Assembly (NCBI GenBank): GCA_031261065.1
Contig: JAISKD010000005.1
Location: 1 to 51,350, forward strand
DNA: 51,350 nt
DNA from: Mycoplasmataceae bacterium
GTDB taxonomy: Bacteria > Bacillota_I > Bacilli_A > Mycoplasmatales > Mycoplasmoidaceae
Direction: 5' to 3'
Of the stretch, positions 29,999 through 51,146 are shown one piece after another. The position numbers were made by a program, and so were the translations under genes. The notes below the pieces were generated by a model that was not told where the DNA came from, searched no databases, and worked only from the letters and a program-made list of their open reading frames with translations. The number at the start of each line of letters is the position of its first letter. The stretch's first letter is position 1.

Positions 29999-32345
29999 TT
30001 AACCTATGTTTCAAACGACGTTAGGCATGCTACCAACAAGGGAATTTCCCAATATTATATCTAGTATTAGAAAAAAGGTTTGCTCAGAACCAGCTGGAAT
30101 ATTTACGGTTAATGTAGCAGTCGAGGCTGGGTTATAAAATAGGCCAAGTCCTGCTTCCGTAAATAATAGCGGACTCGTAGCAGTCAATGCATTAAACACA
30201 CACCCACTAAAAGCGGCGCTTCCTATAAAAGCAACACTGCTTCCAAATGTTAATGTACCCGATAAGTTGGAACACCCTGAAAAAGCATACTCTCCTATTG
30301 AGACAACACTATTAGGGATTGCAAGACTTCCTGTAAGGCCTAAGCAATTCTCAAATGCGTGCTCTCCTATTGAGATAATGCCACTAGGAAGTTCGAGATC
30401 TGCTGATAACAACCCACTACAATCCTTAAAAGCTTTGTTTCCAATTGATGTAACATTGTTTCCAATTGTTAGTTGCCCCACTAAGTTGTTACAACCCTCG
30501 AAGGCACTATCACCTATTGAGGCAACACCACTGGAAATTGTGAGATTTCCCGTGAGTCCAGAGCAATTCTTAAATGCATCTGTGCCTATTGAGGCAACAC
30601 CTTCTGGAATTTCAAGATTTGCCGTTAATCCGCTACGGCCACTAAAAGCTTCATCACAAATAATTTTCGTTCCTGACACAAATGTGAGTGATGCAGCGAC
30701 GGGGTCCTCACCATCAGCAGTAACGCTTCAATATTTTCCGAAGCAATAATACACTCCACCATTGTTAAGATAATACACATTATTACTATCTTTGCATATT
30801 TTCCCATTCGTTAATGTACCGCCACCACTAGTATCTACGAAATTAGTATCATAGAATGCTTGATAACCTATAGAAGTAATGCCAGAACCTAACGTTAGTG
30901 TCCCAGTTAATCCAGTACATGAGTAAAACGCATGACCTCCTATAGACGTAACGCTATCGGGGATTGTGAGGTTTCCTTCTGTTGTTGTGAAGCCAGAACA
31001 ACTTGCAAATGCGTACTCTCCTATTGAGATAACACCATCGGGGATTGATAAAACTCCCCCCCACCGCAGAACAACCATCAAAGGCTTTATCACAAATAAA
31101 TTTGGTGCCCTGTTCAATAGCAATCGTTCCTGATGGAAAGTCACCACTATTGGTAACATTTGCTGCTTTTCCAAAACAATAATATGTGCTGCCATTTTTG
31201 AGATAATAAACACCACGTTCATCTTTGCATATTTTTCCATCTTGTAAAGACGTAGGAGCAGTTTTTACGAACCCAGTTCCAAAGAATGCTTGATAGCCTA
31301 GAGATGTAACACCACTTCCAATCGTCAGTGATTTTTCTTCTGTTGAACCTAAATTTATACAGTTGTAGAATGCCTGTACGCCTATTGAGACAACGCTATT
31401 AGGAATCACGAGATTTCCTGTCAATCCATAGCAGCTTTTAAATGCGTTCTCTCCTATAGATGTAACACTATTCCCAATTGTTAATGTTCCATTAAAACTT
31501 CCACAATCTTCAAATGTACTATCATGGATTTCGGTAACACCGTTAGGGATTTCAATATCTCCTATCAAGCTGTCGCATCCTTTGAAGGCATTATCTCCTA
31601 TAGATGTAACACTATTCCCAATTGTTAATGTCCCACCAAAATCTTCACAATCTTCAAAAGCACTTTCACCTATTTCAGTAACACTATCAGGGATTTCAAT
31701 ATCTCCTGTTAAATTACTACATTTCATGAAAGCAGACCCTCCTATAAAAGTGACACTGCTTCCAATCGTTAATAATCCTGTCAATCCAGCTTGCCCAATA
31801 AAAGCAGCCTCCCCTATATAACTAACACCATCAGAAATAGTTAAAGAACCAGTTAAATAATTGTTTTGATAAGTTGGGTTCCCAAATGCCATTGGACCAA
31901 TCCTAACTGAATAAGTTTTTCCTCCATCGGTGACTGTCGCAGGTATTACTAAATTAGCGGCTTCGTAATTGCTGGTGAAATCTACATAATATGTAACAGT
32001 GTTTGTTGCCTCATCTTTATAATAGTTTTTTAATTCACCATCTACGTCATCGCCTCAATCACTTCCATTAATTGCACCACTTGTTGCTGCAACACAAGAA
32101 ATCGAATCAGTAACAATTACTGAATCGCCTTCTTGGTCTGTAGCGCTAATTATATTACCTTCAATAGGAACAGCAGCACCAGAAGTATTTATATTGTGGA
32201 TAGTAAGAACTTTATTGTACTCTCCACCTTGAGATACTGTGTAATCAGCAGTTGTCACAATTCCAGCTCATACTATATTAGATGTAGCATTAGTAATCGT
32301 TATTGTTAATGTTCCACTATAACCAATTGTTGGGCTACCACTGCT
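29999..32345 (-). pseudogene. BspA-like LRR gene, frameshifted and without own start
   Basis: A long LRR_5 coding stretch that lacks a signal peptide and start. From about 32345 one frame gives an N-terminal domain like that of its upstream neighbour (GTLTITITN, later AINGSDW) and then repeats of the LTG.L.IP..V.SIG..AF..C type. At the G7 run (31056-31062) the frame breaks: beyond it the repeats continue in another frame to a TAA at 29999, and the first frame dies at about 30954. Losing one G would join them. It could be a phase-off gene, a true pseudogene, or an assembly error. Confidence 0.75.
31056..31062 (-). repeat. G7 homopolymer at frameshift
   Basis: Seven G on the coding (minus) strand. 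With G7, codons run into a non-LRR frame; with G6 or G9 the reading continues into LSIPDGVISIGEYAF. Such runs are classic sites of slipped-strand mispairing and also of sequencing error. Confidence 0.65.
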
Positions 32346-34012
32346 AAACTGCCCACTATTTGTGAATTATCACCGCTGTAGTTATATGCCTGAGGCGTTG
32401 ACCCACTCATCAAAATTTTTGCTTCGCCTACACTTGCTGATGTTGCCAAACTGTAAGCGTTGTTTGAAGAGCCAATTTCTACATCTGTAAAACGTGTTGA
32501 CTTAAATGCATCAGCGCCTATAGAACTAACACTATCGGAAATTGATAAAGTATCATCGATTTCTCCGCACTCTGCGAAAGCCCTTGAACCAATTGTTTCT
32601 AAATTTGTGGGCAATGTTAAAGAAGTCATTCAATTGCAGCCATTGAAACATGAATCACCTATAGTAGTGATTTCTTCAGGAATGGTTACACCGCCAATTC
32701 CTAAATTACCCGCTATTTGTGAACTCTCACCATTATAGTCATATGGGATAGGTGTTGACCCATGCATCAAAATTTTTGCCTCACCAACACTTGCCGATGT
32801 TGCTAAACTAAAATGATTGCTCGCAGGGTTTTCGATAGTTATACCATCAAAATAAGTGCCATTAAATACATCAGCGCCAATTGTTGTTAGGGTAGATGGT
32901 ATTGTAATATTCCCGATCATTTCCCCACAACCCACGAATGACATGTCCCCAAGTTCCTCCACCTTCGTTAATGTTATGGATGTTAAACTAGTACAAGATG
33001 AAAAACACTGCTGTCCTATGCTGGTGACATTTTCTGGTACAGTTAAATCACCACAAGCAAAAATAAATCCCTGTCCCGGTGTAATTAGCGGCACTCCATA
33101 ATTCAAGCCAACATCTTTACTACCTAAACTTCTTATTACTATTTTTGCATCTCCAACATTATTAGCATAAGCAAAAGATGCGTTAAGTTCTGATAGTTCT
33201 ATATCATCGAAGGAACAAAGATGAAAAGGATATTCACCTACATCTTTTAATGAACTAGGTATGGTTAATGTTCCATCAAGATTTGTACAAAATGAAAATG
33301 CACTATTTCCGACAAATTCTACATTATTTCCAATTGTCAAATCCCCAAATAACTCAGTATATGAAAAGCAAGCATTTGCTATGCTAGTAACTTTATATAT
33401 GGTTTCTCCATCTTCTCCATATACTTCATCTGGAATGACTAAATCTTCGGCTACATATTCATCATTTCCTACATATGTTATTTCTTTAGAATCTTCGTCA
33501 ATGAAATAATATAAAGAACCACTATAATATCCTTCTCAGTCAGAACCATCAATAGCCTTAACATTTATAGTTGTGTAGTGCTTACATGTTATATTGCTTA
33601 TTTCTATATGGTTACCCTTTTGATCATAAGCCACAATATCATCAAGTACAATGTGGCTTTCTGTAACGTTCTTATTCTTAATGGTTAGTATTTGATTTGA
33701 AGAACCGTCTTCTTCAAATATAACATCTTCAGGGTCTTGAGGTGAATATGCTCAAATAATTGGACCAAAATCTTTTTCCTGAGTAATTGTGACAGTTAAC
33801 TCTTGGTTATGCTCTAATATTGGAGAATGATGATTAGAGTTATCAGCATTATATATTTCAAAACTTAGATCATTATTAGTATTAGGACTTGGCTTCTTAC
33901 TACATTGTGTAATTGGTAGTAGAATAGCCGCCGCAACTCCTCCACCAATAACAAGTGCTGCTAGGATAGATAAATATGTCTTTTTAGATTTAGTTACTTT
34001 TGTTTTGCTCAT
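32306..34012 (-). CDS. BspA-like LRR lipoprotein, apparently truncated
   Basis: 568 residues: signal peptide (SKKTYLSILAALVIGG then LPITQC as lipobox), a beta-rich N-terminal domain with IDGSDWEGYY, then LRR_5 repeats including two near-identical blocks with ASVGEAKILM.GSTP. The last block breaks off after SQIVGS; the final 13 residues are out-of-frame translation of the next gene's N-terminal domain, before TAA at 32306. The sequence therefore looks like a join between two tandem paralogues. The -10 may be TATACA at 34023-34028. Confidence 0.8.
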
Positions 34013-34202: not shown

Positions 34203-36605
34203 ATGTTAAGTAAAAAGAAAAAGTATATTATTTCGCTAGCATCTCTTGTATTATTAGCAGGTGCTATCACTATTCCTCTAGTTCTTACTACACAATGTAA
34301 AGGGAATAGTGATACACAAATCGAAACAATACAAGGACCAAATGTAGTTGAATACGGAGCAGAAGCTACATATTATGTTAATATTAAGAATCATAAAGGT
34401 GAAGCAACTATTGAATGCTACCAATCTGATGAAATAGAATTTTACGAAGATGTTGAAATAATAACTGGTCCTCAAGTAAATGTTGCTAATGGTAAGGCAA
34501 CATTTAAAATAAAGAATGTTAATAGTTCACAAAGTGATGTTGCTATTAAGATTAAAGTAACTAATAATGGGAAAGTATCTGAATACAAACAAGTTGTATT
34601 TAAATCCGAAGCTACTGCTGTAGGATACAGTGCTGATGGTACTAATTGAGCATCATCGGGTACTATACAAGGTGCTTTACAAGAAGGTCTTGATTACTAT
34701 ATTGATTATGGCAACCATATAGTTACTTATTGCGATGTTGCAAGAGCACTTTTCTCATCAGGAGGTGCATTTGTCACACCACGCAAGATGGACTATGGTG
34801 CTGTAGACTTGGTTATACCTAGTTCTGTGGTGATAGATGGCGTAGAATTTGCAGTAGAACTAGGAGTTGGTGCATTTAGTTTACAAGGTTACCTAAGTGC
34901 GGGTGGTAATGCGGCGCCAGATTATTTTTTATCAGGGTCAGTCACAGTGTCAGAAGGAATAACAAGTATCCCCGAAGATTCATTTTATGGATATGATGTG
35001 CTTGGTTATAATTGGGTATTCAACACTGCATTTGCAAATTTCGATCCTGTTACTGAAATTATCTTCCCCACTACAATTACAAGTGCTGGAGCTGGATGCC
35101 TTACATACTCTACAAGTTTCTTAATAAATGAAGACAACATAAGTTACGTGGAACTATCTGACAATAGTTTATGAGCGCTTGGAGTTGTGCAAACATTAGA
35201 TAGTAGTTTGCCTATTGTTGGAGCTAGTGACCCAGTAGTATTCAAAGAAGGAGCAATTGGCGTAGGTGATAATTTTATAACTCACTATACCAATGTAATA
35301 GAGGTAGAAGGAGTTCAATTGCTTGACACAATCAAATACATAGGCGCTGGTAGCTTTAGTGGTATGGATGAACTTGACACAATTAACTTTCCTTCTTCAT
35401 TAAAAAGTATAGGTGACTCCGCATTTAAACAATGTGTCGCATTAGAAGATGTTGAACTTAATGAGGGACTTGCAAAAATTGGGATTTTTGCATTTCAAGA
35501 AACTAATATAGATGAAATAGTAATACCGAATACGGTTACAGAACTTGGCTATGGTGCATTTATGCAATGCTATAATCTGACGGTAGCAACAATTGGTTCT
35601 AACATAACTGAAATTCCATATATACTTTTCCACAGCTGCTCGTCATTGGCGACAATTCATCTTAATTCCGACATAACAAAAATTGGGGAAGATGCATTCT
35701 ATGACACACTCCTCTTAACTAATTTTAATGCCACAACCGGTATAGCGTGGCTTGATTGTATGAATTATTCATGAGTTTTAAAAGGCAATCCGGAGTATGA
35801 AAGCGGCCCTGCAATTAATTATGGAACAAAAACCGTAAAGGGTTTTTACAATGGGGCATTCTATGACTGCAATAGCTGATTAACACAAATCGAAATACCA
35901 AGCACAGTAACCGAAATACCCAAGGATTGTTTTAACGGTGCCAATGTCACTTCTGTGAGTTTGCCGGATAGCATTACATACATTACTAAAAATGGCTTTA
36001 ATAGTTTTTCATGGAATGTTCTAGTTAACAACGGTGTCACGCTCTATGAAGAAGGTTATTATTTAAAATCGGGTGACCGCTACTTTTTAATGGGACGCAC
36101 ATATTCTGCGACAAGCACAACGCTTATATTACATGATGATACATATGGTTTAGTTGATGCTCATGGTGCCAATCAAGGTGGTATGACGGGGGTTAAATTC
36201 AATGATTCATTGCATTACATAGCTAGAAGCTCATTCAGCGATTTTCTTCAGATTACAAGCATTTCTATACCAGCTAGTGTGGTTGATATTGAGGAAGACG
36301 TTTTTTCTGAATGCAGAGATTTGGTAGATGTCGATCTTTCTAATTGCGAAGCACTAATACATCAAAATGCATTTTTTAGATTGAACAGTGATGTTCATTT
36401 ATATTTATCGTCAGAGATAAAATTTTCCTATGAAACTTCATTGCAAAATCCAGCATTTTTGTCGATATTCGCAGTTACAGGCACAGTTGTATCGCCAAAT
36501 GGACAATCAGATCAACAATTCCAGTATTTTGTGAACCACCTTAACCTTGTAGCCGGCAATCCCGAGGCTTGAAGTTGAATATCAGGAACATACCCAAATT
36601 CTTAA
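34203..36605 (+). CDS. BspA-like LRR lipoprotein, 800 aa
   Basis: Signal peptide with a hydrophobic core and LTTQC lipobox near residue 37, an N-terminal beta domain (VEYGAEATYYVNIKNHKG), then LRR_5 repeats such as LPDSITYITKNGF and SIPASVVDIEEDVFSEC. One frame through about nine TGA-Trp codons (for example 34648, 35173, 35773, 36570). The repeats are more diverged than those of the minus-strand neighbours, so it is an older or differently selected paralogue. Likely surface-exposed; binding partner unknown. Confidence 0.87.
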
Positions 36606-38895: not shown

Positions 38896-40356
38896 TTAAC
38901 TCTTTTTAACTAAGTCAATAGAACAGAAACAAGTTATTTTCGCTATGTTTCATCTTACAAGATCTGCATCTGCATGTATATATATTTGTTCTAGACTAGG
39001 ACATTTTCTGAAAAGATCTGGTCATACTTGAAGACCTTCTTCATCATCAGAATAAGAAATGGTAACATTAGTAAATTCAACATAACTTAAGTTTTCATTA
39101 CATTCGAATGCACTAGACATAATTCTTCAAATATTGCTATTAACAATAATAGATTTTAAGTTATGGCAGCTAGCAAATGATAATCAACCAACTGTTTTAA
39201 TGCTATCTGGTAAAACTAATGCTTCAATACCAGAGTCTTTGAAAGCACCTTCTTCTATGCTTTGAACATTTGCTCCCCAATGAATTTCTTTTAGTAAAAG
39301 TGTTTCAGTGAAAGCTTGGTTACCGATTGAAATAACTGAATCTGGAATAGTTATTTCTTCAATTCCACTTCCTCAAAACATACCATATCTAATTTCTGTC
39401 ATAGATTCAGAAAGCTTAACATCTTTTAATGCACGGTTGTCAATGAATGTAGATGTTCCACCATTTTCAATTGAGTCAGGTAAGATAACTGAAGTTAATG
39501 AATATTGTTTTTGGAACACAGCATTAACAAGTCCATATGTATTTGGATCTATTTCAGGAGCAGCCCCAACAATTTCTTTAGGAACATTAACTAACCATTG
39601 GTTATATGATGGACCTGCAAAAGAATATTCATATTCACCAATCTTATTAAATATAAGATTAGGACATCCTCAAAAACAATCTACACCAATATTAGTTACA
39701 CTATCAGGAATGTTTACTTCTCCAATTAGTCCTGTTAGTTGAAAACATTCATATCCGATGTTTTGAAGGTGGTTTCCTAAATAAAGTTCTCCATTTAGTG
39801 AAGTACAACCATCAAATACTCCATTTCCTAGATAAGTAGTTCTGTTTGGAATTTTAATTCCACCAGTAATTTCATCACAACCTTTAAATGCATAAGTGTA
39901 TATTGTAACAACGCTCATAGGGAAAATAATCTCGTTGTTAAACTTACAGTTTCTAAATGATTCTTGGCCAATGTACACAAGGTTTGACCCAGTAAACAAA
40001 AGATTCTTTACTGAAGATGGTAAACCTCTTCCATTAAGGAAAGCTCTATCACTAATATGTGTGATTGGAGTTCCTTCTTCATCAGTTGCATAAATACCTA
40101 GTGTATTGTATGACTCATCAATAGTAACATCACTTTTAATTCCATACACTTTACCTTCTCTTATATCTAGATAAGATACAGGAATAGCTTTTACTTCATC
40201 GCTGCTAGTTGAAGTAAAAGTACTACTTACCTCAGACTCAGAAGAGTCATTTCTATTTGTAGTTTCATTTATAATCAGTGGGGTAGCACAAGAAACGGTT
40301 GCCGCAGATGAGATCAGGAATGTAAATGCTCCCTTATTCTTTTTATGTGCCTTCAT
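38896..40356 (-). CDS. BspA-like LRR secreted protein, 486 aa
   Basis: Basic start MKAHKKNKG, a hydrophobic stretch and a possible lipobox (TVSC near 23), then a Ser/Thr-rich spacer and LRR_5 repeats: AFKGCDEITGGIKIP, VFDGCTSLNGELYLG, SVISIGNQAF. TGA near 39670, 39372 and several toward the end are Trp. It uses a mostly different repeat dialect from the 30-34 kb genes. It converges on DUF4143 copy B with only 39 bases between. TATAAT (40364-40369) is seven bases from the ATG. Confidence 0.83.
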
Positions 40357-41042: not shown

Positions 41043-41048
41043 TATAAT
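41043..41048 (+). promoter_or_regulatory. -10 box of NrdD-like small gene
   Basis: TATAAT, six bases, ATG 41055; leaderless spacing. Confidence 0.6.
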
Positions 41049-41054
41049 ATTTAT

Positions 41055-41276
41055 ATGGAAAACGTATCAAATCAAACAGCAACAAAAGTAACATATCTAA
41101 AAGCAACAGACACAGTGTGTCCTGTTTGCGGTTCTAGAAGAATACAAGGTATTTCTCGAGTAACTGGTTATATGAGTTTAGATGAAAGATTTGGTGACGG
41201 AAAAGTCGCTGAAAGAAAAGCTAGAATTGACCACAATGCAGGCCACAAATCTAACTATTGTATCGAAAGAAAATAG
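41055..41276 (+). CDS. Stand-alone NrdD C-terminal (glycyl-radical-like) domain
   Basis: The 73 residues match only the C-terminal end of class III anaerobic ribonucleotide reductase: a CPVCGS zinc half-site at 22-27, the loop RVTGYM at 35-40 in the place of the RVCGYL glycyl-radical loop (Gly38), then FGDGKVAERKARIDH in the place of F.AGK..E...R..H. The catalytic barrel is missing and no frame upstream encodes it, so this is a complete small gene with its own promoter, not a tail. It may act as a replaceable radical domain, as GrcA/YfiD does for PflB, or be a zinc protein of another use. The second zinc cysteine pair of NrdD is absent; Cys69 remains. Confidence 0.72.
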   Translation: MENVSNQTATKVTYLKATDTVCPVCGSRRIQGISRVTGYMSLDERFGDGKVAERKARIDHNAGHKSNYCIERK

Positions 41277-42023: not shown

Positions 42024-45000
42024 ATGAGCCGAAAGAACATCAAATCAACTTATAAATTACTTTCTATTCTTTCTACATCACTTGTTAGTGCAGGAATTGC
42101 CGCCCCACTTTCATTAGGACTTTCAAGTAGTGGAAGTACTGATGCAGTCATAAATCCAGAAACTGAACGTACTGTCATAAACGCAGCTAACACACAATAT
42201 CTTCACCACTTTACTGGTACTTATACGATGCAAGATGATGGTGCTACCGGTGCCCCTTATACATTGCAGCACGGTACTTTCAATAGTGACGGAGATAAAC
42301 CAGGATGAACTGGTTCTATTTCTGTTTCATTCAAACGCATGACAATCGAATGTGATATCGATGCCATCGCGTTAGATCAAAGATTCATTGAAGGAGATTC
42401 AAATGCTGGTGCTGGTGGTCAAACTTATTCTTTACAGCAGTTGGTGAAACTTGGATTGATTTCAAACTTGAAATGGTATATCTCAACAGCTAATTCCAAC
42501 GTCACTGTAGCCATCCAACAAGGTGGAACAGTACTAAAAACAATTACACAATTTAGCGAGAAATATTTAGCACATAGCTTCATGAATGAAACAGGAAGCA
42601 GTGATGCTAATGTTTTAATCACGCCAATTATCGTAGGTAACATAGCAACATCGCCAAACCCTGATTGTACATTAGACTTGGGCGGTGAAGTAACTGTCGG
42701 CGTCAATGTCGGAAGTTCCGACCAAGGAACTAATGGAATATTCAGCGGGCTTGAAGGCTACTGTACCACTGTTGGTTCTGGTACCGCCGCGACTAAAGAG
42801 TTCCATGTACGAGCAATAGTTGACAAGGAACCGTACATCTATGGTGTACTTGGAATACCAACCGGAGTAATTGGTTGAAATAATTACAATTTTGATACGA
42901 ATTATGGCTCTGTCACTACTAACAAATACTATGCAAACAATGAAAGCGCTACAACCACTGGTAATGCCATTGTTTCTGCATTAGCTACGCATGTTTTTGA
43001 TACAAGCTATATGATAGCAATCAACAAAAAGTATAGCTGACAAAACCCAGCTGGAATAGAAAGAGCTAAAGAACAATATGTTTTAGCTCAGCTAAATAAC
43101 GATTATTTTTGTGCATCGCTACTAGCTTGAGACACTATTGTTAACCAAAGAAAAGAAGTATGAATGAATGATACAACTTATTCAACATATCTATCAAATC
43201 TTACTAACGAACAAATGGATTTATTACAAACATCAATTGCCAGTGGTAAGTTATTAAGCTTTGGTTCAAGTAAAGTTCTTCCAAATGTTGATAATTCTAA
43301 TGGTTTTTCATTATCTTATCAAAATGGCACAGATCGAAATATTGTTCAGTTATTCAAAAATTACTCAATGACTCAACAACAATCTCTTTTAAACTTTTTA
43401 ATGTTACATTGCAATGATACAGACCAACAGTTTCGAGATGCTATTGTTGCATTACAAGAATTAGAGTGGTTTACCAATGCTAGAAAGTTTAATATTATTA
43501 AGCAAGCTGATGGCGAAAGATGAGTAGGTTTAGATGTATTATCAACAATAAACTTGCCATTGATTATTAGAAATGCATATGATTGCTATACATCTGATGG
43601 TTTGAGCCACAGAGATTTATCAAAACTAAACTTTAAGTTTGATGTTAGTACTAACTTACACTACCAATCATCAGCCTCTGTAGATCAACTTGTTTGTTCA
43701 TTAATGCCTACAACAATTGATGATTTTAATTTTATTTCATATACTGGTAAATCAACTTCTACTTCAATTGGAACTGGCTTATTCTTGTACGATTCCACAT
43801 GATCGGGAGGAATTGATAACCAATACTTACAATTTAATACGTTGGGCACAACTGATAGTGCTGGTGGCACCACCGGTGGTGGTATTGGCTCATTATATTC
43901 AGACCCAAGCGAAACATATTCTATTTGAGACAATTTCCGGACACAACAACAAAAATGAAATAGATCTATCTCTACCTTCGATGTTGGTGGTGCTGCTGGA
44001 GTTCCTACTTTAACACCAGCAAATGTATACACAGCATTGAAACCTGGACAAGAATTATTTAGAGTTAAAAAATATATCAAGGATTCTTCTTCAGGAGATT
44101 ATGTTGCGGCTGATATGACCGATACCGATTACTATGCATATTTAGATTTCTTTCACTCATTGACATTTGCTCAATTCCAAACTGTTTGAGCACAGTATTT
44201 CTATAGCAAAGGAACTCACGATGTTTACTATCCTTTGCCATCAAATAGTGATTTAATTGTACGTTTAGATTTATCTATGTTTTTCCAAATAGATGAATTC
44301 TTTGCTGAGTTTAGTGGAACACAATTTATTATTAGTCACCAGTTCAACATGACTGATAGCGGTTTATTTGGCAATGGCCCTGGTACAGCTGATGCAGGAA
44401 AGACAACGGCAATTATCGAGCAAGGAACTGGAGATGATGTCTATACCACTAACATCTATGCGCCAACATACATTCTAAATAGTAAATCATCAAGTGATGT
44501 AAGGGACCAGAGCGATGATTACCAAAATGATTGACCACATGCATACTTTAGCGGAAATGCCATGAGTGTTATAATTACACACGACATGCACCCAACAGTT
44601 GTTCCACAAGTTAATCCTAAGTTGTTCTACGGTAACTTCGAATATTTTGCTGATACATTCATTGCTTTTCAAGATGAAACTAATGTTGAAAAACCATCTG
44701 CTTTAATACATATAAATATTTCTAAAACACAACTTCTAGCTGTTGCTGACCACGGAGTTCAAAATCAAAGCTATATAGAACCTAATGGAACAAATGAAGG
44801 AAAGTTCTCTATTGTTTTCACTATTCCAAATACATTTGATTTATATAACCCTAGTCATACCTATAGCACAGATAAATCTCCAGGTTTTGCAAATATTTCG
44901 TTCAAGTGTGATGATGCTGGTGGTGATATACCTAGTTGTGTTACGTATAACTACGTTACACCAACTCCTCCAGTTCCACCCGCTCCTCCATCACCAACCG

Positions 45001-45206
45001 CAAGCGGCAGCTACGTTGTTTTAACTTTAGGAATTATTGGTGGTGTTGTTGTATTTGGAGTTCTAGTTTATATTGGTTATGCACAATATCGTAAACATAA
45101 GATTTGAAAAGATGATGACGATGTTGATGGAATTCCAAATATATCATCAAAGAAAGTTGATCCACTTGATACTCTAGTAAAAGACCAAGGAGGCGGAGTT
45201 CTATAA
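42024..45206 (+). CDS. Giant type-I membrane surface protein, copy 1
   Basis: Unrecognised 1060-residue protein. Signal peptide at 1-32 (ILSTSLVSAGIAAPLSL), a large ectodomain rich in Thr, Ser, Asn and aromatic residues with a few cysteines, a Pro-rich stalk (TPTPPVPPAPPSPT) just before one membrane helix (LTLGIIGGVVVFGVLVYIGY), a basic stop-transfer RKHKI, then an acidic cytoplasmic tail with VDPLDTLV. More than ten TGA-Trp codons in one frame. Its stop shares a base with the ATG of copy 2. -10-like TATAAA ends five bases before the ATG. Confidence 0.78.
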
Positions 45207-48085
45207 TGAAAAAACTTGATAAGTATTTAATTTTATTCTCATCATCTACCCTAGCTGTAGGTACTTCTATAGTCGCTACCGGTATTAGTAGTGTTGATGG
45301 TACATATGCTGCTCTTGATGATAATGCTCCTGATAATCAAGTTGAAGCAACTGATGAAAGTATTGTTACTACACAAACAGCTCTTGGTAATTCAATTGGT
45401 GATTCACAACACTACTCAATTACTTATAGTGTTGCAGATAATACAGGCTCTGCAGGTAGATATGTTTGACCGCTAGGTATCAATGGTACACAAGGATCAT
45501 TCATGATCTCTTCTGTTGTAATTGAGTGTGATGTAAATGACGTTTTCTTTAAACCATTAGCTACAGCAGGAGCAGATGTAGTGCCATTAGATAAATTAAT
45601 TGAAACAGGTGCAATTACAAATCTAAAAATATCTTCTCCAGATGCTGAATTTACATTCTCTCCAAAAGCTGGTTCACCAGATCCATTTGCATACCAAGTA
45701 CTTTTACCAGCATTTGGTACTACTTTCCCTAATGATATTTTCGTAGAAAGCTCAATGTATAACGAAAGCTATTATTTTAATGCATCTATGGCCATACGTA
45801 TTGGTGGTAATGGTCTAAATGGCTTTTGAAAGAATTTATATGCAACCGTTGATGCAGTAACATCAGCAGATGCTACAATGCAATTCCACCTAAAATTCGT
45901 TGACAACAACGTCGGCAAGTTTGCGGCAGACTTCACAACAACGTCAAGCGACCTACTTGGTCCTTCAGCTCATGACTCTCAAGGTTTTGGTCTAGATATT
46001 CTAAAATTCACATCTACTACACCAAAATGAACACCTACAAACACATTAGATCCAAATATATTTGATGCACAATATGTGTTTAAGATTGGAGATGACTCTT
46101 ATGTAGAACCAATCACTGGTACAGAAACATCAAGTACAGCCCACTTAAATCTTCAAATAAACACTGATTATATTTCTATTGCTTTAATGTCATGAGATTC
46201 TGCTGTTAACCAAGTTACAGCAAATTGAGGTTCTGCTCCTGATGCTGCTGTTAATGCTTTCTACAATAAATTCCAAAGTGATACTTCTGTAATGAAAGCG
46301 ATAGACAATGGAATTGTCACTGGACAATTAATGTACAGATCTCTTTCAAAAGTTTATAATTTCTCATTGCCTACATCTCCAGTAAGATTTAATACACAAT
46401 ATACAAATGCATATCTAGGCGATGCAGAGATGGTACAATTCACAACTAAATACATTAATAGTAGTTCTGATGAAATTATTGCAGCAATTAAAGCTATGCC
46501 TCTTCTTGACTGAGCATCAAAAATTAAAGTCCCTTCATCTTCTAGCCTTGGTGATACTTCATATCTTGGTAAGTACCCTTTAACTAATACATCATTGGTT
46601 AATGGCACAGACCCAGTTGATCTAATCAATGCAGTAAACAGATTGTTTGCTCCTAACCATGAATATGAAATAGCATTCCGTCCTAACATTAACTTACCTA
46701 CACAGGTAATGACTGTAAGAGTTACAATGGCTGATTTACTTTCAGAAGATGCTGAAATTAAATATACAGTTAATAAAATTACAGACACTGACATTGAAAA
46801 AAGTAAAGTTGCATTCTTACATTTCTATTCATTAGATACAACTTTTGGAACTATTGGTCACTTAAGAGGTGTTCCATTAATTGCGGGTGAACCTGGTAAA
46901 GATGAAACTGACCCACTTGCACTTTCTCAATATGCATTTAGTGATACAAGTCCAACTGTTTATGCATATAAAGTTTTATCTCCTAAACTAGCTCTTGATA
47001 GTATCGGAATAAATGGACAGTTGTTATCTGGAAAAACATTTAATAATTTCTATAACGATAACAACACATGAACTAAGTTCTTAAAATTCATTTATGGTAA
47101 GAAACCATCTGAACTATTGTATGGAACTGATGGAAACACTGGTTTAAATAATTACGATCTTGAACAAGAAACTACTACTATTGAATATATTTACCCATAT
47201 GGTGCAATACCATTTGGTGTAGATAACTTCTTCTCAATCAAACCAGGTTATTCATCACGTTATGATAGTCTTGATAATGGTACACTTATTCAGTCTGTTA
47301 CTTGAAGCGGAGATGATTCAACAGGAACATTAACAGCAAATGTTTTATTCGTTGGTGAAACAGTACCTACACCATTTGACTTTGCTTTCTTTGCAAGCAA
47401 TATTACAAATATTATTAGTATTCCTTCTTTCTCTGATAGTGATAAGATAAAGAATATTACACCATTAGACGTAGCTCTTCAAAAAGACTTGTTCTTAGAT
47501 AGGTATGTATCTTTCTCAAACCATTCTCCGTCTAATAAGTATTTATTCTCTATCCCAAATTACACTAAAGAACAATTCATTGCCAATGTTGTAATTGATG
47601 AATTCTGATCACTATATGGAAATAATGAGAATGGAACACTAACATTCTGATTTAAAGCATATGACCGTGTTGCTGCAGCTGGTCGTGATGCAGATATTGA
47701 TGGAACAAAGCAAACAAGTTCTTACTTTACTTCATATGCTTTCACATCATCATTGCCTCCTATTCCACCTATTCCTCCAGTTCCCCCTGGACCGATTCCA
47801 ACATCTCATACAGGATTAACAATCGGTTTAATAATCGGTGGTGTTGTCGTTTTCGGTATTCTTGTTTATGGTGCTAATAAATTACACAAAAAACGTAAAC
47901 TTTGAAGTGGAGGCGACGATGATACTGTTGCCGCTGGTGATGATTCTGGAGTATCTAATGCAAGCATGGATCCATTGGCTCGTTATGAAGAAAAAATTAA
48001 GAAGCAAGCTGAGAAACATGGACATGTTGCAAAAGTTGCTGCTGACCCTTTTGCTAAACCAGACGAAAATCCGGACAACTTCTAA
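45206..48085 (+). CDS. Giant type-I membrane surface protein, copy 2
   Basis: 959 residues with the same plan as copy 1: signal peptide (YLILFSSSTLAVGTSIVATG), ectodomain of about 830 residues, Pro stalk (PPIPPIPPVPPGPIP), helix GLTIGLIIGGVVVFGILVYG, basic KKRK, then an acidic tail with MDPLARYEEK and a Lys-rich end. Ectodomains share little obvious sequence apart from early segments (IECDV/IECDI), so they are old paralogues. GGAGGCGGAG before the ATG supports coupled translation. Its stop overlaps the pflA stop by two bases. Probably a two-part surface complex; function unknown. Confidence 0.78.
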
Positions 48086-48837
48086 GAAGCGCTTTTCTTT
48101 CCTAGTTTAATACCTTCACTTATTACCTTCTCAGCATCTAGTGCTTCTTCTTTAGAAGGAACACGATTATCCTTTAGAACATAATCAATTCCTAGGTTCT
48201 CATACTTTGCCATAGCTAATTGGTGAAATGGTAATACTTCAAAACGATCAACAAATTTCATTTTACCAATTAGCTTACCTACCTTAATAAGGTCTTCTTT
48301 CTTATCTGTATAGTCAGGAAGAAGAACTTGACGTATTCATGAGTGATTCTTATTTCAGTCAACGAACTCTAATAAGTTGACTTCTCTTAATTCGTCAGTT
48401 GTTCTTGTCACCTTCTTATGACCCTTAGGAGTTATTTGCTTAATATCTATAAGTCATAGTGGTTTATAAACAACAATTTTCTTATATCAAGCTAGGTTGG
48501 CGTCAATAAATGTTGCACCAGAAGTGTCTAAGGCTAAACTAATGTTTTGAGCATGACACTTCTTGGCTAACTCTAAGCAAAATTCTTGATGGACAGTTGG
48601 TTCTCCACCGCTTAGAGTTATGCCACCTTTTTTATAGAACTCTATGTTAGCTTTATATTTAGCTAATAATTCATCAACACTTATAGTGGCGTCTAAATCC
48701 TTTATTTGTCATGATTCAGGATTATGACAATAAACACAACGATATGGACATCCTTGTAGGAATAATATTAAACGGATTCCTGGACCATCTACTGCACCAA
48801 AAGATTCTAATTTAAAATAAGGAGCACGTGCTGACAT
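48082..48837 (-). CDS. pflA: Pyruvate formate-lyase activating enzyme
   Basis: Radical SAM enzyme that makes the glycyl radical on PflB. CxxxCxxC cluster motif at Cys30, 34 and 37 ([11 protein letters not shown]), the GGE motif in ITLSGGEPT, and the early [10 protein letters not shown] typical of PflA. 251 residues, normal. TGA codons near 48709, 48484, 48455, 48357 and 48341 are Trp. It starts two bases after the pflB stop with no clear ribosome-binding site, so translation is probably coupled. The order pflB-pflA is the usual one. Confidence 0.95.
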
Positions 48838-48839
48838 TT

Positions 48840-51146
48840 TTAAATGACTGTATGGAAAGTACGGCTAATAACGTCGTCTTGTTGTTCTTTTGTTAATTTA
48901 ATGAAATTAACTGCATAACCAGAAACTCTTATTGTTAATTGAGGATACTTATCAGGATTCTTTTGAGCATCCAATAATGTTTCTTTATCTAAAACATTAA
49001 CATTTAAATGGTAACCACCATTTTTAAAGTATGCATCAATTAAATCAATAAGGTTTGTTTCTTGTGAAGATTCACCAACTTCATCATGTAACTTAACAGA
49101 AAGTGATTTCTTACCTAGTGCAGATGGAATGATAGTTCATGTGTTAGATATTCCATCTCTTGCATATTCATATGGAAGTTTAGATACAGAAGTTAAAGAG
49201 TTTATTGCTCCTGTTTTATCTCTTCCATTAAATGGATTAGCTCCTGGAGCAAATGGTTGTCCTAGTTTTCTACCATCTGGAGTTGATCCTGTTGCTTTAC
49301 CATAAACAACGTTTGATGTAATAGTTAAGATTGATAAAGTTAATTCAGAATGTCTATATGTTTTGTTTTCAGCAAGAATCTTATAGAAATCTTTAACTAG
49401 GTTAACTGCGATTTCATCAGCTTTATCATCGTTGTTACCATATGTTGGGTAGTCACCATTAATATTGAAATCAACAGCTATCTTTCTATCGCTTCCTTCA
49501 ACTTGTTTTCAAACTGGAGTAACTTCAGCATATTTAATAGCACTTAATGAATCAGCAGCTACAGAAAGTCCAGCAATACCAGTTGCAAAGAAACGCTTAA
49601 CTTCAATGTCATGTAATGCCATTTCTGCTGCTTCATAATAATACTTATCATGCATATAATGGATTGTGTTTAATGCATTGATATAAACACGAGCCAATCA
49701 TTTAAGCATGTGTAGGAATCTTTTATAAACAACTTTATATTCAAGCTTTCCTTCAGGAAGTTGTTCAAGTTCTGGACCCATTTGGTATTCATTCTCTATT
49801 TCGTCTATACCACCATTAATTGCGTAAAGTAATGCTTTTGGTAAGTTACATCTTGCTCCAAAGAATTGCATTTCTTTACCAATTTTCATAGGTGATACAC
49901 AACATGCTATTCCATAGTCATCTCCATGTTCTTTACGAATTAATTCGTCAGACTCATATTGGATAGATGAATATTTAATAGATGTTTGAGCACAGAACTC
50001 TTTAAAACCAATAGGAAGGTGTTTAGACCATAGAACTGTAATGTTTGGTTCTGGTGCAGGACCCATATTACTTAATGTTTGTAATAATCTGAAAGAATTC
50101 TTAGTTACAAGAGTTCTTCCGTCCTTGCCCATTCCACCAATTGATTCAGTTGCTCAAATTGGGTCTCCAGAAAATATTTCATTATAGTCAGGAGTTCTAA
50201 TGAATCTAACCATACGTAGTTTCATAACGAAATGGTCCATTAACTCTTGTGCTTCTTTTTCAGTAAGTACTCCGTTCTTAATATCTCTTTCAATATAAAT
50301 ATCTAAGAATGTAGATGTTCTTCCAACAGACATAGCTGCACCATTTTGGTCCTTAACAGCTGCAAGATATCCAAAATAAACTCATTGCACAGCTTCCTTT
50401 GCATTCTTAGCAGGTTTCCTAATATCTAAACCATAAGCTTGTGCCATAGTAATCATAGCGTTCATAGCTTTTAGTTGATCTGCTGTTTCTTCACGCATTC
50501 TAATATCAGAACGTGTAATATGCTTATGAGTCATTGCATCTCTAGCTGCTTTCTTCTCATTGATTAAATAATCCATTCCATAAAGAGCTATTCTTCTATA
50601 GTCTCCGATTATTCTTCCACGAGCATAAGCATCAGGAAGACCAGTAATAATGTGAGTGTGTCTTGCAGCAGTTATTTCTGATGTATATGCATCAAACACA
50701 CCAGCATTATGAGTCTTTCTGTACTTAGTATATATTTCATCTAAAATAGGATCTGTTTTAAATCCATAAGTTTTAGCTGCTTGGTCAGCCATTCTGATAC
50801 CACCGATTGGCATAAATGCTCTTTTAAGAGGCGCATCAGTTTGCAGACCAACTATTTTTTCTAGATCCTTATTAATATAACCAGGACCATATGCATCAAC
50901 AAATGAAACTCTTTGGTCCATATCTAATACACCACCATTAGCTATTTCTTTCTTAACTAATTCAGAAACAGCAGTTCATAGTTTCTTTGTTGCTACTGTT
51001 GGTCCTGATACAAATGATGAATCACCTTCATATGGTGTATAGTTTTTATGAATAAAATCTCTGGTGTTTATATCATCACACCATTTACCTTTAGTGAACC
51101 CATTCCATTCTTCAAATCACGTATTTACTTCTTTATCTTTACTCAT
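48840..51146 (-). CDS. pflB: Formate acetyltransferase (pyruvate formate-lyase)
   Basis: Converts pyruvate and CoA to acetyl-CoA and formate without oxygen. 768 residues. Active-site Cys415-Cys416 in [10 protein letters not shown] and the radical Gly743 in RVSGYAVNF, 26 residues from the end, are intact. [12 protein letters not shown] and [13 protein letters not shown] are family blocks. TGA-Trp near 49509, 49698, 50154 and 50384. ATG 51146 is six bases after TATAAT, leaderless. Activated by the pflA product; its formate can feed Fhs. Confidence 0.96.

Follow-up and report, generated by a model that had tools for sequence, protein, structure and literature searches.

To our knowledge, class III (anaerobic) ribonucleotide reductases (RNRs) have been described as single chains, NrdD, with the glycyl-radical loop attached. 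Oxygen cleaves glycyl-radical enzymes at the glycine, and spare parts have been validated for pyruvate formate-lyase (PFL) only, with the possibility raised for other glycyl-radical enzymes (PMC8683613). In Ca. Mycoplasma girerdii, a highly expressed free radical-domain gene has been interpreted as such a PFL repair part (PMC5476646, PMC9239101). Here we analyze a 51,350-nucleotide stretch from a Mycoplasmataceae bacterium (assembly GCA_031261065.1, contig JAISKD010000005.1, positions 1 to 51,350 of the forward strand; hereafter the window), in which a gene at 41055..41276 (+) encodes a free-standing NrdD glycyl-radical loop protein of 73 residues. We propose, with a probability of about 0.88, that this gene specifies the radical-bearing chain of a class III RNR that obligately consists of two chains, the large one of which would be the NrdD barrel encoded on another contig of the same genome. 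In the open literature that we searched, no published description of a detached NrdD radical domain was found.

The 73-residue loop gene and its partner barrel

The open reading frame (ORF) lies exactly where the initial annotation had placed it. It starts with ATG, stops with TAG and translates as MENVSNQTATKVTYLKATDTVCPVCGSRRIQGISRVTGYMSLDERFGDGKVAERKARIDHNAGHKSNYCIERK with zero internal TGA codons; genes neighboring it contain TGA and form single frames when TGA is read as tryptophan, which is the Mollicutes-type reading. As had been claimed, only the C-terminal element of NrdD is encoded, with matches restricted to the end of the Pfam family NRDD (positions 515-562 of 562; E = 1.3e-8, above the gathering score), of the NCBIfam models TIGR02487 (532-581 of 581) and PRK07111 (689-744 of 746), and of the sole convincing PDB chain, Prevotella copri NrdD (8p23, residues 697-743; E = 1.9e-5). 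The protein comprises the second half of the NrdD zinc site, the radical loop and a normal NrdD C-terminus, and nothing more. Alignments of loops and barrels place the second cysteine pair of the zinc site, CPVC, at codons 22-25 (41118..41129, +). RVTGY spans residues 35-39 and fits the R[VI]xGY motif, with R, T, G and Y invariant; it contains the predicted radical glycine, Gly38 (codon 41166..41168, +), which is invariant in the loop alignment and aligned with 8p23 NrdD.

Zinc-ribbon families of Pfam also match the protein, at E = 0.05-0.13 only, and these weak matches are what would speak for an unrelated zinc ribbon. It is nonetheless exceedingly improbable that the protein is of that kind, or that its target is a different enzyme, for instance PFL: NrdD C-termini are by far the best matches, the PFL-type domain PF01228 (Gly_radical) is not matched by the 73 residues in a Pfam scan that does match NRDD, the sole Gly_radical match in the genome is the fused PFL itself, and relatives of the gene are found in the order nrdD-(loop)-nrdG.

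Upstream, a TATAAT -10 box (41043..41048, +) precedes the ATG by 6 nt, the same spacing as at dispersed loop genes elsewhere, which fits the leaderless promoter first attributed to the gene; the transcript is probably leaderless. This layout is real but ordinary, since many window genes use it: 10 of the 13 matches to TATAAT-N5..8-ATG in the window stand where a substantial ORF begins, with pflB among them. The loop ORF is a genuine gene, conserved under purifying selection, and not a chance frame, because 31 genomes of the same genus carry it and the ratio of nonsynonymous to synonymous substitution rates (dN/dS) in the loop core is 0.04-0.21 (unsaturated pairs showing amino-acid change).

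The window belongs to a draft metagenome-assembled genome, G000, of 705 kb in 12 contigs (92% complete). Both nrdD and nrdG, for which a genome search had been advised, are present on contig C2, outside the window. The nrdD barrel gene (C2:40185-42176) encodes 663 residues under translation table 4, with an ATP-cone and NRDD positions 1-516, and nrdG (C2:42179-42721) starts 3 nt after the barrel gene and scores 140.6 bits against TIGR02491 (cut-off, 126.1). This NrdD, the only one in G000, is not a one-polypeptide enzyme with a radical loop of its own, because the chain ends directly behind the first zinc CxxC: PF13597 is covered over 1-516 of its 562 positions only, and the ORF ends ...FNFHIRYCLDCAERVANETRAKSAEKLGA (also written ...NISYLGFNFHIRYCLDCAERVANETRAKSAEKLGA), which contains the first zinc cysteine pair, CLDC. 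It thus corresponds to the truncated NrdD without an RV.GY loop for which the initial annotation had proposed a search.

The two chains together make up one complete NrdD, as the barrel covers residues 8-690 of 8p23 and the loop 697-743 with only about six linker residues absent, and this coverage places the cut within the short stretch that links the two zinc cysteine pairs. All four zinc-site cysteines are present across the chains, as CLDC at the barrel end and CPVC in the loop, the cysteines being what is observed and the zinc predicted. Aligned with phage T4 NrdD, the barrel retains the equivalents of C79, C290 and N311 as NC, MGCR and GRGN, which we take to be the first-strand cysteine, the catalytic thiyl cysteine and the formate-type asparagine, respectively. 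No large subunit of a class I or class II RNR and no class I small subunit was found in the G000 assembly; as far as the assembly shows, the barrel and loop pair must therefore reduce ribonucleotides if the cell does so.

It had been suggested that the gene belongs to a split or a spare-part enzyme, and of these the split is favored. Neither finding named as a refutation came up: a barrel and an activase exist, and in sequence the protein matches NrdD, not a plain zinc ribbon. A spare part like GrcA/YfiD would be an optional radical domain, used to restore an NrdD that is complete until oxygen damages it. A short, free-standing radical domain encoded in an anaerobe behind a promoter of its own has that appearance, and a protein of about 100 residues of this sort probably exists in other Bacilli (see below). 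For the 73-residue protein, however, the spare-part account is very unlikely: the only NrdD of G000 has no loop to replace, which is likewise true of 33 of the 36 genomes in our genus sample (G000 included), half of the zinc site belongs to the loop protein and would be left in place by oxygen cleavage at the glycine, and relatives of the loop gene lie in an nrdD-nrdG operon.

Some points weigh against an obligate two-chain RNR. With G000 being 92% complete, the missing part may hold a second RNR. One genus member, G001, has the loop, and no split barrel was found in it. AlphaFold models of the loop alone (mean predicted local distance difference test score (pLDDT), 45.7) and of a relative's barrel alone (mean pLDDT, 57.4) are too uncertain to use, a poor result explained by the small number of usable sequences (7 for the loop and 4 for the barrel). 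Finally, the presumed use of formate is read from residue conservation only.

Distribution, gene order and origin of the split

Across the genus sample, a free loop occurs in 34 of the 36 genomes (the window's type in 31, a divergent type in 3) and a loop-less barrel in 33, with neither in G002 and G026. Extra fused NrdDs of other subfamilies, akin to those of other Bacilli, were also seen (L073 in G001, L074 in G034 and L075 in G029); L075 reads without TGA and may represent contamination or recent transfer. A family-wide search revealed that genera g24 and g44 carry the split NrdD too. Among 38 barrel rows, which include one gene fetched twice (one locus pair), CxxC lies 2-29 residues from the end in all 38, followed by dissimilar tails, some of only 2-4 residues. 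Because a terminal cysteine pair without a partner would be expected to decay, and yet it is fully conserved, the site would be completed by the other chain, and the pattern points to a zinc site shared between two chains. Invariant features of the loop are CPxCG, RxTGY, ERF and single K, E, R and H residues. Loop and barrel distances are correlated (Mantel r = 0.74), which shows common descent only.

Trans-splicing, of RNA or of protein, would rejoin both pieces into one chain and so restore a normal NrdD, and introns or inteins have been described in phage nrdD genes (PMC3653736). We nevertheless regard it as extremely unlikely here, since the barrel tails past CxxC are only 2-29 residues long and mutually unlike, and the loop genes have their own ATG plus a Shine-Dalgarno sequence or leaderless promoter. 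On tail length and dissimilarity we rejected a split intein, for which the tails leave no room. A very improbable account, too, is decay, in which a broken NrdD would survive as two dying remnants in a parasite that imports deoxynucleosides. Mycoplasma genomes are reduced, the two genomes lacking both chains show no NrdD, and a visibly broken copy occurs in G219. Against this, both chains are conserved over three genera with invariant functional residues and the dN/dS values given above, a Shine-Dalgarno sequence or TATAAT box precedes most loop starts, nrdG is intact and no other RNR was found in the assembly. An assembly or frameshift artefact, which a draft genome in 12 contigs might invite, can practically be dismissed: more than 30 separate assemblies share the split, with the halves far apart or with nrdG between them.

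Gene order varies among the relatives. In g44, the order is nrdD, loop, nrdG, with the loop in frame with nrdD and 12 nt on, across a junction reading ...TTT TAA AGGAGATTAATT ATG... with the Shine-Dalgarno sequence AGGAG; this arrangement is likely the original layout. In about 14 g1 genomes, barrel and loop are near each other, with nrdG in between where its ORF was recognized, and some members of g24 have the same spacing of nrdD and loop as these close-set genomes. The loop lies upstream of nrdD in G004, and far from the barrel in G000 and many other genomes, where a TATAAT box often precedes the ATG by 6-8 nt.

Viral contigs supply the nearest fused relatives, NrdDs reading ...IRYCKDCGTYLHGENECPSC...GISRVTGYLSLDERFG and ...FHIRYCKDCGTYLHGENECPSCDSHEIQGISRVTGYLSLDERFGPGKSAER...; set against them, the split chain breaks immediately behind the first CxxC, with the linker TYL kept by the loop (as VTYL). 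In a tree without phage sequences, all split barrels of the family form one supported group (99/93). When phage sequences are included, the fused phage NrdDs L170, L171 and L173 group close to g44, though not with full support, and the data do not reject a tree that keeps all split barrels in a single clade (approximately unbiased test, P = 0.24). Both a single fission and repeated fission within the family are compatible with the phage-inclusive trees. In a phage collection, every match listed carried an NrdD annotation apart from one labelled hypothetical, and none was annotated as a separate loop. One IMG/VR contig, L172 (43 kb), has a free loop and resembles mycoplasma DNA, and a barrel search of viral contigs found nothing.

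PFL, related cases in Bacilli and other window genes

PflB and PflA had been noted some 7 kb from the loop gene, and that region encodes a PflB-type PFL of 768 residues with a fused glycyl-radical domain (48840..51146, -) and an apparent PFL activase of 251 residues with the radical S-adenosylmethionine motif CxxxCxxC (48082..48837, -). This PFL is probably the source of the formate used by NrdD. In most genomes of the genus, PFL is itself split. Its barrels, of 708-742 residues, end after ...GISNTFSIIPGALGKD and a tail that is mostly rich in lysine, and the RVSGYA domain is carried by an ORF of its own, of 80-110 residues; the window's own PFL is fused. Split PFL loci (L111-L130) were seen in G003, G007, G010, G011, G014, G016, G018, G019, G022, G023, G025, G026, G027 and G038, and barrel and radical-domain gene adjoin in some genomes and are far apart in others. 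G038 (648 kb) has a split PFL and no NrdD.

NrdD is divided differently in Bacilli of the family coded f18, where the cut falls after the zinc site and the barrel retains both CxxC pairs. Their loop gene, of 55-66 residues, lies directly downstream of the barrel, in many cases with a Shine-Dalgarno sequence separating the two; wherever the flanking DNA was read, nrdG comes next. Since both the place of the cut and the position in the tree differ, this split is an independent event. The f18 split loci are L161, L162, L163, L184, L185, L187, L189 and L192.

A free protein of about 100 residues, consisting of an N-terminal extension and an NrdD loop, was found in 14 sampled Bacilli, 12 of which also have a fused NrdD. 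It is likely the NrdD counterpart of GrcA, so a candidate for the arrangement first imagined for the window, a free NrdD radical protein beside a fused NrdD, is present in other Bacilli. The N-terminal part of these proteins reads VDVEV.NGEM...DGE.VDL.Y (loci L165-L169 and L179-L182). In G277, one of two NrdDs (L183; 748 residues, reverse strand) has lost its loop and ends ...GLERIPRINLESE / ...GRKENEHHGLERIPRINLESE, and the same genome has the free 100-residue radical protein, which suggests a route from spare part to obligate subunit.

Among the other genes of the window, those at 32306-34012, 34203-36605 and 38896-40356 contain repeated leucine-rich motifs and resemble BspA-like surface proteins, which have been reported in parabasalid-associated mycoplasmas. 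Two large putative membrane-anchored surface proteins (42024-45206 and 45104-48085) are encoded in tandem in overlapping frames, with similar C-terminal anchors.

Proposed two-chain enzyme and comparison with known systems

With NrdD cut into two genes on different contigs, the radical piece must reach the enzyme as a separate protein, and since G000 has no complete NrdD, the loop would be obligate rather than optional. From the sequences we infer a complex in which the chains would join around a zinc ion, with two cysteines from each, and the loop would insert into the barrel. NrdG, the product of the next gene after the barrel, would then abstract a hydrogen from Gly38, and the resulting radical would generate a thiyl radical on the MGC cysteine of the barrel; ribonucleoside triphosphates would be reduced with formate, for which the nearby PFL is the putative supplier. 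Cleavage by oxygen would take place at the glycine, so that only the 73-residue chain would be lost to damage, and it could be remade without rebuilding the barrel. Repair of PFL differs in this respect: the cleaved stub remains on the damaged PFL, whereas the split NrdD barrel is made without a stub.

A broader reading, which we offer tentatively and rate at somewhat less than even odds, is that in these host-associated mycoplasmas both NrdD and, in many genomes, PFL are barrels that never bear the radical glycine. The radical would be an exchangeable protein cofactor, a small and separately regulated cartridge loaded by its activase and swapped after oxygen damage, and the same detachment would have arisen independently in other Bacilli. 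If the two-chain enzyme is real, a natural RNR with its radical part in trans would show that attachment of the loop is dispensable, and the 73-residue protein would offer a small substrate for the study of glycine activation by NrdG. The spare-part idea would also extend from PFL to DNA-precursor synthesis, for which our data give concrete candidates, and the 'autonomous glycyl radical cofactor' genes of mycoplasmas, Ca. Mycoplasma girerdii for instance, may encode subunits that the enzyme cannot do without, not repair parts.

Other two-gene RNRs are known. The split class II enzyme NrdJa/NrdJb (PMC9669993) belongs to another class, and the phage nrdD genes split by introns, inteins or endonucleases (PMC3653736) differ in the place and cause of the cut; the accessible parts of these two accounts describe no detached radical domain. 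Among families of free radical domains, GrcA3 (NF038360) resembles the free PFL radical domains of the genus, which score 145 bits, below the curated cut-off of 158. GrcA3 is of the PFL type, and in genomes with a free PFL radical domain the PFL itself lacks one, so an 'autonomous spare' reading is probably wrong for the PFL of this genus. GrcA/YfiD and phage T4 Y06I, the PFL spare parts (PMC8683613), share with the G000 loop the design of a free glycyl-radical domain that completes a large barrel in trans. The G000 loop differs in being of the NrdD type and, as proposed here, obligatory rather than a repair extra, its large enzyme never having a copy of its own. Finally, a close likeness exists to class III NrdD itself (PF13597; PDB 8p23 from Prevotella copri and 1h78-1hk8 from phage T4), with which the G000 system shares the ATP-cone, the barrel, the catalytic residues, the four zinc cysteines, the RVxGY loop and the NrdG activase, and from which it differs in that the chain is cut between the zinc cysteine pairs and its parts are separate genes on different contigs.
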